NCBI GenBank assembly: GCA_028703835.1
Contig: JAQVMB010000010.1
Coordinates: 1 to 49,015, forward strand
DNA: 49,015 nt
DNA from: Candidatus Peribacteraceae bacterium
GTDB lineage: Bacteria > Patescibacteriota > Gracilibacteria > Peribacterales > Peribacteraceae
Direction: 5' to 3'
The position numbers and the translations under genes are program-made. Positions 40,706 to 43,519 of the stretch are shown here, piece after piece. The notes beneath the pieces were generated by a model. It was given only the letters and a program-made list of their open reading frames with translations. It made no database searches and had not been told where the DNA came from. Numbering within the stretch: the first letter of the stretch is position 1; every line of letters starts with the position of its first letter.

Positions 40706-40734
40706 TTGAATTTATGCTATATATCTTGTATAAT
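40706..40734 (+). promoter_or_regulatory. Promoter of the 133-aa gene
   Basis: TTGAAT (40706-40711), 17 bases, perfect TATAAT (40729-40734), then six bases and the ATG at 40741. Confidence 0.7.
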
Positions 40735-40740
40735 ATACAT

Positions 40741-41142
40741 ATGAACAAACACAACACCCACAAGCTCACGTTTCTCCATGTCGTCACCGCTCTCCTCCTC
40801 GTGAGCGGCACCAGCATGGTCACCGCATCCACCACCCTGACGCTCCAAGCGCAGGTCGTGGGAGACAAAGGCCAGCTCCTGCTCGTGCCGGGATACTTGG
40901 ACGGGACAAACAGTACCCGGACGCTCCGTCTCCACCAAGCGGCCTCCCCGCAGACATCCGCACAGAAGCAGACGGAACGAACGCTCTTCGCCGGCATGCT
41001 GCTGATCCTCACGGGCTTCCTGACCTATGCCCTCCACGTGGAAAAGCTCCAGAAGAGGGAGACGCACATTCACAATCGCCTCATCGAATGGTTCCGGGCG
41101 CATCTGGACCGGCGGCCCGGCCTCCGACACGCGAGACGCTGA
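40741..41142 (+). CDS. Hypothetical membrane protein with two helices
   Basis: A 133-residue protein. A signal-like helix (FLHVVTALLLVSGTSMVTAS) is followed by an extracytoplasmic stretch of about 60 polar residues, a second helix (LFAGMLLILTGFLTYALHV), and a basic cytoplasmic tail. No family is recognised. It has one of the best promoters in the window and a terminator 18 bases after its stop, so it forms a complete single-gene unit. Confidence 0.72.
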   Translation: MNKHNTHKLTFLHVVTALLLVSGTSMVTASTTLTLQAQVVGDKGQLLLVPGYLDGTNSTRTLRLHQAASPQTSAQKQTERTLFAGMLLILTGFLTYALHVEKLQKRETHIHNRLIEWFRAHLDRRPGLRHARR

Positions 41143-41159
41143 TCAACACTTCGCATAGA

Positions 41160-41184
41160 AAAAGCGGCCCGATGGGCCGCTTTT
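41160..41184 (+). terminator. Bidirectional Rho-independent terminator
   Basis: AAAAGCGGCCC and GGGCCGCTTTT form a perfect 11-bp stem with a GAT loop. It has T-runs on both strands and can serve the 133-aa gene and the convergent Cys-rich mini-gene. Confidence 0.82.
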
Positions 41185-41207: not shown

Positions 41208-41297
41208 TCAGCAGCAACCGCCGCCTCCGCAACCGGGACCGAAACTGCAACAGCCGCCGGGGCCGAACCCGCAGCAACTACCGGGACCTGTAGACAT
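41208..41297 (-). CDS. 29-aa Cys/Gly-rich mini-protein under CIRCE control
   Basis: A 30-codon gene giving MSTGPGSCCGFGPGG then CCSFGPGC and GGGGCC. Seven of 29 residues are Cys and about half the rest are Gly. The unit (S)-C-C-x-F-G-P-G appears nearly twice, which is not expected of chance DNA. The spacing of Cys pairs would suit metal binding or disulfide/crosslinking roles; no known family is assigned. It has its own strong promoter (TAGACA, 17 bases, TGC-TATACT) overlapped by a CIRCE operator, a 25-base leader, and a terminator 24 bases after its stop. Expression on heat or protein-folding stress is inferred. Confidence 0.68.
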   Translation of the reverse strand: MSTGPGSCCGFGPGGCCSFGPGCGGGGCC

Positions 41298-41328
41298 AGG
41301 AAGGATGGGAAAATTGTAAGACAGAAAC

Positions 41329-41357
41329 AGTATAGCAACCCGGGGAGGAGGTGTCTA
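41329..41357 (-). promoter_or_regulatory. Promoter of the Cys-rich mini-gene
   Basis: TAGACA (41357-41352), 17 bases, then extended -10 TGC-TATACT (41334-41329). The CIRCE operator overlaps the -35. Confidence 0.7.
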
Positions 41358-41381
41358 GCACTCTCACTTGACGAGTGCCAA
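41355..41381. promoter_or_regulatory. CIRCE element (HrcA operator)
   Basis: CTAGCACTC, nine bases, GAGTGCCAA. This matches the CIRCE consensus TTAGCACTC-N9-GAGTGCTAA at 16 of 18 positions with the exact nine-base spacer. HrcA bound here would cover the -35 of the leftward promoter. In most bacteria CIRCE sits before groESL or dnaK operons; no such gene is adjacent. Confidence 0.85.
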
Positions 41382-41553: not shown

Positions 41554-41629
41554 ATATCGGCGTAGCTTCGCCGATATTTGTGAAGCTTCACAAGAATCGA
41601 TGGATGTTCTTTATAATGCGAAGCCGCAT
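41554..41629. repeat. Palindrome cluster after pyrK
   Basis: ATATCGGCG-TAGCTT-CGCCGATAT (41554-41577, perfect 9-bp stem), GTGAAGCTTCAC (41580-41591) and ATGCG-AAGC-CGCAT (41616-41629) follow each other downstream of the leftward pyrK gene. The TAGCTT loop recalls the CGTAGCTTCG repeat near the tRNA. The rest of 41382-41553 has no visible gene. Confidence 0.6.
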
Positions 41630-42444
41630 CAGAACGCCTGCTTCTTCCCCAAATCATCACGATGGTACTTGCCGAACTCCGCGATCTTCCGCGCCGTTTC
41701 GTTCTTCACCACCGGACCCTCCACGCAGAGGCGGATGCCCAGCGGATCCACCGTGCAATTGCCGCACAGACCGTACCCGCACTTCATGTACCGCTCCAGC
41801 GAAAGCTGGCTGGGGATCTTCGCCTCCGCCGTGACCTCCGATACGGCCACCAGCATGCGCTCCGGCCCGCAGGCGAACACTTGGTTAGGCCGCTCCCCCG
41901 TCGCCAACAACTGCTTCAACACATCGACGTTGTACCCCTTGTGTCCCTGCGATCCGTCATCGGTCGCAACGTGCAGGGTGGTGTTGGGCAAGCCCTTGAA
42001 CTCATCGAGGTACAGCAAGTGGTCCTTGCTCCGCGCCCCCACGATGGCATCGATGGCGCAGCCTTGCGCGGACGCCTCCTTCGCGACGAAGTACATCGGG
42101 GAAGCGCCGTAGCCGCCGGCCACAAGCGCCAGGCGCTGCTTGGGCTCCCACTCGTAAAACGTGCCGAAGGGGCCGCGCAGCCCCACCAGATCGCCCTTCT
42201 TCATCGTGGCGAGCGTCTTCGTGGTGTCCCCCACCGCGAAGAACGTGATGCGCAGGTTCTTGCCGTCATCGTACGCCACGCTCATGGGGACCTCGTCCAC
42301 GCCCGGCACCCACAGCATGACGAACTGGCCCGGCTTCGCCCCGAGGGAACAGTCGAACGTCATGGACGTGACCATGGCGGTCTCCTTGCGGACCTTCACG
42401 ATGCGGTACGTTCGCGGTAAGCGGGATTGCAGGGAAATGGGCAT
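41629..42444 (-). CDS. pyrK: Dihydroorotate dehydrogenase electron-transfer subunit
   Basis: A 271-residue flavoprotein that passes electrons from the PyrD FMN to NAD+. It shows an FAD-binding barrel (GLRGPFGTFYEW), the NAD-binding GGYGASPM (110-117), ACGPERML, and the 2Fe-2S ligands Cys222, Cys227, Cys230 and Cys240 in KCGYGLCGNCTVDPLGIRLC. This spacing is standard for PyrK. The ATG at 42444 fits the family start; the frame is open seven codons upstream. It follows pyrD in the same direction, separated by 133 bases of repeat, together forming a class 1B NAD-linked enzyme of pyrimidine synthesis. Confidence 0.92.
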   Translation of the reverse strand: MPISLQSRLPRTYRIVKVRKETAMVTSMTFDCSLGAKPGQFVMLWVPGVDEVPMSVAYDDGKNLRITFFAVGDTTKTLATMKKGDLVGLRGPFGTFYEWEPKQRLALVAGGYGASPMYFVAKEASAQGCAIDAIVGARSKDHLLYLDEFKGLPNTTLHVATDDGSQGHKGYNVDVLKQLLATGERPNQVFACGPERMLVAVSEVTAEAKIPSQLSLERYMKCGYGLCGNCTVDPLGIRLCVEGPVVKNETARKIAEFGKYHRDDLGKKQAF

Positions 42445-42462
42445 GGGACACCGGAAGTAAAA

Positions 42463-42602
42463 CATATTTCAAACAAACAATAAACATAGCCGCACCCCTC
42501 CGAGGGTGCGGACCTCGTGACAATACAAAAAACATTTGTTGTATTTGTTTGACGGTCGCGGGCCGGGACGCCCGCGCCTATGTTCGTTGTATTGTTTTGT
42601 GC
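42463..42602. repeat. Two inverted repeat units between pyrD and pyrK
   Basis: Two units face each other. Each has a CAA-rich border containing CAATA and ending in ACATAG, then a hairpin: CCGCACCC/GGGTGCGG (42490-42511) in one and GCGGG/CCCGC (about 42558-42574) in the other. A/T-rich arms with CAATACAAA lie between. The borders match; the hairpin stems do not. The right border lies inside pyrD and encodes its last residues (KTIQRT) and stop. Confidence 0.62.
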
Positions 42603-43519
42603 ATTCCGCCTACGAGTTCGGCTACGTCAGAAATTCCTTCCTTCGCGCAAAACTCCTTGATCTCATCGCACACCTTCGAGAAGACATCGATGCCGCGCTT
42701 CCAGACGGCCGTCCCGATGCCGATGAGCGACGCGCCCGCGAGCATCAGTTCGATGGCGTCCTCGCCGCTCTGAACGCCGCCCGTTCCGATGATGGGCAGC
42801 TTGCCGCCGGTGGCAGCATAGATGTCGGCGATGCAGCGCACGGCGATGGGCTTGATGGCCGGTCCCGACATGCCGCCCACCCGGTTGCTCAGGATGGGAC
42901 GGCGGCTCCGGAGATCGATGGCCATGCCCGGGCCCACCGTGTTGATGGCCGTAAAGCCGTCCGCGCCGGCATCCGCGCACGCACGAGCGATCTCCGCGAT
43001 GGAGAGCGCCTGCGGCGAGAGCTTGATGAAGACGGGAACCTTGCCGGCGGCCTTCTTCACCGCCTTCGTGACGGCCGCGGCATCGGGCGCGCTGCACGCG
43101 AAGGGCTTGCCGAACTCATCTTCCACGTTCGGGCACGAGATGTTCACTTCCAGGAAATCCGGCTTGAGCGGCAGCACCGCCTCCGCGGTCTTGCCGTAGT
43201 TCGCCGCCGACTCCGCGATGATATTCACGATGAGCGGCACCGGCTTCTTCTTGTTGTACGCGCCGATCTCCTCCTTCGCCTTCTCCGGTCCCGCATCCGG
43301 CACCCCGACGGCATTCAGCGTCCACACGTCCGTGGAAATGACCGTGGGATTGCGGTGTCCCTTATGCTCATGCAACCAGATCGACTTGGTGGTGATGGCG
43401 CCCGCTCCCCCCTCCGCCGCCACCCGCATCCAGCTGCTCGCCGTGATCCCCAAAATCCCGGAGGCGAGAACCGTGGGGTTCTCGAAGGTCACTCCGTGGA
43501 TGGTCTGGGAAAGGTTCAC
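42578..43519 (-). CDS. pyrD: Dihydroorotate dehydrogenase, class 1B catalytic subunit
   Basis: A 313-residue FMN enzyme oxidising dihydroorotate to orotate. Lys45 in AITTKSIW binds FMN; catalytic Cys129 in NISCPNVEDE marks class 1 enzymes; INTVGPGMAIDL and GTGGVQSGEDAIELMLAGAS are the phosphate-binding C-terminal motifs. The pyrK neighbour fits class 1B. The start is GTG at 43519, selected by TACACT (43527-43532) seven bases upstream. The last six residues come from the border of the intergenic repeat. Confidence 0.93.
   Translation of the reverse strand: MNLSQTIHGVTFENPTVLASGILGITASSWMRVAAEGGAGAITTKSIWLHEHKGHRNPTVISTDVWTLNAVGVPDAGPEKAKEEIGAYNKKKPVPLIVNIIAESAANYGKTAEAVLPLKPDFLEVNISCPNVEDEFGKPFACSAPDAAAVTKAVKKAAGKVPVFIKLSPQALSIAEIARACADAGADGFTAINTVGPGMAIDLRSRRPILSNRVGGMSGPAIKPIAVRCIADIYAATGGKLPIIGTGGVQSGEDAIELMLAGASLIGIGTAVWKRGIDVFSKVCDEIKEFCAKEGISDVAELVGGMHKTIQRT

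Follow-up and report, generated by a model that had tools for sequence, protein, structure and literature searches.

On the minus strand of the window, that is, the whole stretch of 49,015 nucleotides of a Candidatus Peribacteraceae contig that was analysed, a compact unit is found between positions 41381 and 41159, in which a CIRCE operator, a promoter, a leader without a Shine-Dalgarno (SD) sequence, an open reading frame for 29 amino acids and a terminator follow one another in this order (Table 1). The initial annotation had seen here a near-perfect CIRCE overlapping the -35 of a strong promoter, and everything that it stated about the sequence holds, including the repeated C-C-x-F-G-P-G unit of a 29-residue peptide with seven Cys. 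Compared with TTAGCACTC-N9-GAGTGCTAA, the operator agrees at 16 of 18 positions and its spacer has exactly nine bases; it is the sole CIRCE site in the 49-kb window, for which shuffling gives a mean of 0.15 when up to three mismatches are allowed. The promoter, with TAGACA (41357-41352) and TATACT (41334-41329) separated by 17 bases, matches the consensus at 10 of 12 positions; its -35 begins on the final three bases of CIRCE, and the region holds three promoter-like sites against 0.5 expected from shuffles.

For the terminator, RNA folding gives a 12-bp hairpin, AAAAGCGGCCC-AUC-GGGCCGCUUUUU, which was absent from the list of a simple scan because its U-run overlaps the stem. The gene that lies beyond it is convergent, and the mini-gene therefore stands alone, being the only gene before the terminator, as had been proposed. 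A convergent ORF of about 140 aa with two hydrophobic stretches recurs 3′ of the mini-gene in some relatives (three loci), and a Pfam search with this protein returned no family. On the upstream side, pyrK is conserved in the relatives and by synteny serves as a position marker for the mini-gene. The leader keeps the motif TTTCTTTCCCC(N)TATG, rich in pyrimidines and devoid of SD, both in the window and in the alignment of relatives; the missing SD was to be expected, since Ca. Peribacter riflensis is SD-scarce and has no conserved CCUCC anti-SD (PMC10783764). Similar pyrimidine leaders also stand before dnaK, and leaders of this type may serve as a translation signal throughout the Peribacteraceae.

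Table 1. Features of the mini-gene locus and its neighbours, in coordinates of the window.
Feature	Positions	Strand	Basis or remark
CIRCE operator (predicted HrcA site), TTGGCACTC-GTCAAGTGA-GAGTGCTAG	41355..41381	-	sequence match and conservation at 38 loci
Sigma-70-type promoter, TAGACA-N17-TATACT	41329..41357	-	same layout in congeners
5′ leader, pyrimidine-rich, without Shine-Dalgarno	41298..41322	-	predicted to start near 41322, judged by the -10
Mini-ORF, 29 aa, MSTGPGSCCGFGPGGCCSFGPGCGGGGCC	41208..41297	-	7 Cys
Intrinsic terminator, hairpin and U-run	41159..41184	-	RNA fold
pyrK, dihydroorotate dehydrogenase electron-transfer subunit, upstream neighbour	41629..42465	-	PF10418, PF00175; synteny
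pyrD, upstream of pyrK	42578..43519	-	PF01180, E 2e-69; synteny
Convergent gene, 142-aa protein without family	40714..41142	+	two hydrophobic stretches by eye

As the idea of a CIRCE-controlled heat-shock gene implied, peptide and operator recur together downstream of pyrK, in congeners as well as in other genera. Loci were collected by pattern scans of 74 genomes of the family and with a sequence model spanning CIRCE to ATG, and the full arrangement of CIRCE, promoter, SD-less leader, Gly/Cys ORF and terminator was found at 38 loci, in 37 of these genomes and 20 of the 40 genera. It was necessary to go through operator and composition because the peptides are too variable for sequence searching: the 29-aa query returned only itself and a chance match within a larger frame in the congener G002. 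All three congeners have the module in the same place, with the peptides MISGPGCGSCGFGPGCGSCGFGPGCGSCS (G001), MISGPGCGSCGFGPGCGSCSFGPGCGSCS (G002) and MTYGPGSCGGCGCGFNGPSGQCC (G003). At most loci, across many genera, the mini-gene comes directly after pyrK of pyrDK, on the same strand; it lies away from pyrK in three genomes (G020, G069, G050), and in two others that carry it (G065, G012) the PyrK Fe-S domain was not found. One genome (G088) carries the CIRCE-mini-gene unit twice, after pyrK and, at a distance of 3.9 kb, near a pyrB-like gene. In ten further genomes a Gly/Cys mini-ORF of 8-16 aa lies downstream of pyrK, but its operator is a different one or has decayed. No mini-gene was found in 27 of the 74 genomes; since many of these are incomplete, or were covered only by a search around pyrK or for CIRCE, the count of presences is a lower bound.

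The module seems to belong to this family. Across the phylum (380 genomes) the CIRCE-to-ATG model found no mini-gene outside the Peribacteraceae, its external matches (G026, G373, G402, G522) being CIRCE sites at dnaK, clpP-like and hsp20-like genes, and a strict pattern scan of the remaining genomes of the class found none either. When a pattern of CIRCE plus GGCC was run against all species genomes, the matches listed comprised Peribacteria loci and unrelated short ORFs. In Arthrobacter and Pseudarthrobacter (five loci) CIRCE is followed, about 50 nt on, by a recurring short ORF beginning MK/TSCQPGCCRHRDDG..., which is unrelated to the mini-gene of the Peribacteraceae. An Arthrobacter ORF, MKSCQPGCCRHRDDG, was considered as a family member and rejected: it recurs, but it is not Gly/Cys-rich along its whole length.

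That the mini-ORF is a gene for a peptide is indicated by its composition and by the way it changes. Gly and Cys together account for 69% of what the 38 ORFs encode in frame 0, whereas the two other forward frames give 1-3% and the reverse frames 2-6%; there are no in-frame stops, and Cys accounts for 25% of the residues as compared with about 1% in the neighbouring proteins. In the three closest pairs, 10 of the 11 differing sites are third codon positions (p 1.3e-4), a pattern by which the mini-ORF, judged from these comparisons, evolves as a protein. Among 8115 short ORFs in the family DNA that was examined, no more than three unrelated ones have a comparable composition, and the complete genome G071 has a single clean Gly/Cys mini-ORF. 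Length and Cys number vary freely under CIRCE (9-29 aa, 2-7 Cys), and over the whole family, that is, 48 peptides with or without CIRCE, among them MSTGPGSCCGFGPGGCCSFGPGCGGGGCC, MTGGGKGGCGGCCGCC and MTGPGCGC, the length goes from 8 to 29 aa. What stays constant in all 48 is a close Cys pair within a Gly-rich chain, in the form of CC or CxC in 43 peptides, the remaining five having CxxC or CxxxC; CGC is present in 29.

HrcA/CIRCE normally controls chaperone operons. The genome under study has an hrcA gene (C8:11869; PF01628, E 5e-20), as control by HrcA would need, and contains exactly three sites with the perfect core GCACTC-N9-GAGTGC, before hrcA, dnaK and the mini-gene; in the family as a whole HrcA (PF01628) was detected in 68 of the 74 genomes. 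In the complete relative G071 there are only five CIRCE-like sites with up to three mismatches, at groES, dnaK, a clp ATPase gene, hrcA and the mini-gene, a company into which the initial proposal of a new kind of heat-shock gene would fit well. The -35 beneath the operator is conserved among the 38 CIRCE loci, in two layouts distinguished by eye: TAGACA at the 3′ edge of CIRCE, or TTGAGA/TTGCGA inside it. Moreover, in several genera a symmetric variant operator, TCACTC-N9-GAGTGA, precedes dnaK, clp, groES or hsp20, and there the mini-gene operator shows this type in one arm or in both (Fisher p 0.006, a modest statistic, uncorrected for relatedness). The mini-gene operator thus tends to change where the HrcA operators became TCACTC-N9-GAGTGA, and these genomic comparisons strongly support that in the Peribacteraceae the mini-gene is a member of the class I heat-shock regulon under HrcA.

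Some further features of these operators may be mentioned. A lineage-specific CIRCE variant, TATCACTC-N9-GAGTGATA, stands before dnaK, groES and clp genes in four genomes (five loci; G066, G049, G057, G067), and in G066 hrcA retains GCACTC despite this variant at the other genes; HrcA operator specificity has apparently shifted inside one family. At three hrcA promoters the right CIRCE arm extends into the -10 (GAGTGCTATACT), so that the overlap of operator and promoter at hrcA itself differs from that at the mini-gene.

Where CIRCE has been lost or replaced, the peptide persists. Downstream of pyrK, in genomes that lack the CIRCE version, we find for example MTGPGCGC (G021), MTGGCGCK (G076), MFGGGCGCGK (G077), MSGGPGCGCN (G007) and MSGEHCNCGFCGGGHC (G083), and in G060 the CIRCE of the mini-gene has decayed. 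In two genera (g5 and g19) the gap between the -35 and -10 of the mini-gene is filled by a 20-bp palindrome, TTAGTTTAG-TN-CTAAACTAW, which has just one or two additional sites per genome. In three genomes, representing both genera (G021, G064, G077), the second site, with 2-3 mismatches, lies directly before a nitroreductase gene (PF00881); other secondary sites in these genomes precede uvrA or unrelated genes. A further genus (g55; G083, G079) has a TTGTGAA-N4-TTCACA(G)-like inverted repeat upstream of the mini-ORF MSGEHCNCGF..., which by its form is compatible with Rex- or Crp/Fnr-type control. The occurrence of versions of 8-16 aa under different operators therefore means that the gene switched regulators and kept its chemistry.

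These observations lead us to conclude that the mini-genes would constitute a new family of stress-induced dithiol micropeptides, and the mechanism could be as follows. With HrcA sitting on CIRCE, the -35 would be hidden and the mini-gene silent. Inactivation of HrcA through titration of GroEL is established for other bacteria and assumed here for the Peribacteraceae; by analogy with those bacteria, unfolded proteins would occupy GroEL, HrcA would lose its activity, and derepression would yield a short mRNA stopped at its own terminator, from whose SD-less pyrimidine leader translation would start. The product of this complete stand-alone gene, a micropeptide without a secretion signal, would act through its close Cys pair, usually CC or C-G-C, as a soluble agent of thiol-disulfide exchange or as a thiol buffer, reducing or reshuffling disulfides and scavenging electrophiles while the chaperones are at work. 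In other words, minimal cells such as those of the Peribacteraceae may respond to protein damage by making a thiol peptide on the ribosome, as their genomes suggest.

The peptide is short and Gly-rich, has close Cys pairs and could hardly fold, and its function should therefore lie in the thiols. The initial annotation had suggested a metal or redox buffer; from the comparative data a redox (thiol-disulfide) role appears the most likely one, soft-metal binding being its main rival. That the product serves as a ribosomally made dithiol in disulfide exchange or thiol buffering under stress has, in our estimate, about an even chance; somewhat more tentatively, a micropeptide of at least 8 aa might replace low-molecular-weight thiols or the enzymes of thiol-disulfide exchange, wired to HrcA in most of the genera that carry it and to other, probably redox, regulators elsewhere. 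The regulators possibly indicate damaged-protein stress in the case of HrcA and redox or electrophile stress in two genera. The comparison favours redox somewhat, since the operator used instead of CIRCE in these two genera is also found before nitroreductase genes, and in B. subtilis the nitroreductase YodC is among the genes of thiol-redox regulators (PMC6943732). In addition, CGC as a tripeptide is documented to imitate protein disulfide isomerase (PDI), with an E0′ of -167 mV (PMC4316792, PMC5238392). Against this redox reading, one would expect such a dithiol motif just as much in a soft-metal ligand, and the Cys spacing varies (CC, CxC, CxxC, CxxxC), so that no single catalytic motif is conserved.

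The mini-gene could, then, encode a minimal metallothionein, whose CC/CxC thiols would bind Cu(I), Zn, Cd or As(III), or spare iron from damaged proteins, HrcA being involved because metal stress, like heat, unfolds proteins. A quarter of the residues being Cys, the CC, CxC and CxxC motifs and the increase from 2 to 7 Cys through repeat expansion form the pattern of composition-driven metal ligands, and there is a precedent in the yeast metallothionein CUP1, which is under heat-shock factor (Liu and Thiele 1996, as cited in PMC10399457). However, members of 8-12 aa with 2-4 Cys could hardly build a metal cluster without oligomerising, an operator of a metal regulator was recognised at no locus, no metal gene adjoins the mini-gene in the loci read, and neither Pfam nor NCBIfam gave a family match for the peptide (E<=1), all of which makes this explanation the less likely of the two. 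The recurrent place directly behind pyrK, on the same strand, would also suit an auxiliary factor for DHODB (PyrDK) next door, for example one that helps to rebuild the PyrK iron-sulfur cluster after stress. A-type Fe-S carriers end in a C-terminal CGCG, which the CGC motif resembles; an A-type carrier proper (IscA/SufA) was rejected, the peptide having no Pfam domain match and only this short CGC(G) resemblance. The accessory role is very unlikely, given a mini-gene with its own promoter and terminator, which CIRCE ties to the chaperones, which persists in the two genomes where the PyrK Fe-S domain was not found, and which is not beside pyrK in three more.

Other readings place the function in the regulon or in the RNA. 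Since the mini-gene apparently shares its CIRCE control with hrcA, groES and dnaK in G071, the peptide might exert feedback on HrcA or on a chaperone such as GroEL, for instance by adjusting, as a ligand, how the cell recovers after heat shock; but a feedback internal to the regulon should not survive the passage to non-CIRCE operators, where the composition is kept, and this makes the idea still more improbable. The lowest probability goes to a small regulatory RNA in which the ORF is incidental or secondary: the predicted transcript is short and terminated, and its fold is slightly more stable than shuffles (z -2.2), but Gly and Cys abound in frame 0 only, substitutions fall at third positions, and start and stop are retained while RNA sequence and length vary widely. 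Rfam gave no family above threshold for the transcript, and a known riboswitch or sRNA was rejected on this basis, as was an attenuator or leader peptide, given that in the window the terminator is followed by a convergent gene and that the relatives read have no conserved downstream gene on the same strand.

The class I heat-shock regulon, one of the oldest known in bacteria, is seen as made up of chaperones, proteases and their repressor. A conserved micropeptide among five regulon members would point to a function that has been missed, and left unannotated, in a little-studied branch of life. Peptides of 8-29 aa are below the limits of gene callers, and the family therefore shows that regulatory context and synteny can expose functional micro-genes. 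A dithiol that proved redox-active would correspond to the glutathione-like thiols but be encoded by a gene, and one that proved metal-binding would be a minimal metallothionein; should the ribosomal dithiol reading be true, there would be a new functional class within the bacterial heat-shock response.

The CIRCE operator itself is classical, and it is the gene family that is new, since such features are not known from any heat-shock gene or peptide family described so far; a search of open-access full texts likewise found no HrcA-controlled Cys-rich peptide. With the class I regulon (groESL, dnaK, hrcA) the mini-gene shares the operator placed over the promoter, the presence of hrcA in the genome, and an operator type that tends to shift with the rest of the regulon, but the known members are chaperones, proteases and hrcA, and not a Cys/Gly peptide of 29 aa. 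Metallothioneins, including yeast CUP1, are likewise small, Cys-rich, variable in sequence and provided with CC/CxC, with a heat-shock regulator in the yeast case, whereas the mini-peptides are much shorter, the smallest having 8-12 aa and 2-4 Cys, and are rich in Gly instead of Ser and Lys. The CGC/CXC mimics of PDI and the low-molecular-weight thiols have in common with them the short chain and the close dithiol, often exactly CGC, but are synthetic or made by enzymes, whereas the mini-peptide, putatively redox-active, is genetically encoded under a stress regulator. Finally, the mini-gene recalls the HypR/YodB-type thiol-redox regulons of Bacillus in that it shares a palindromic operator with nitroreductase genes in two genera.
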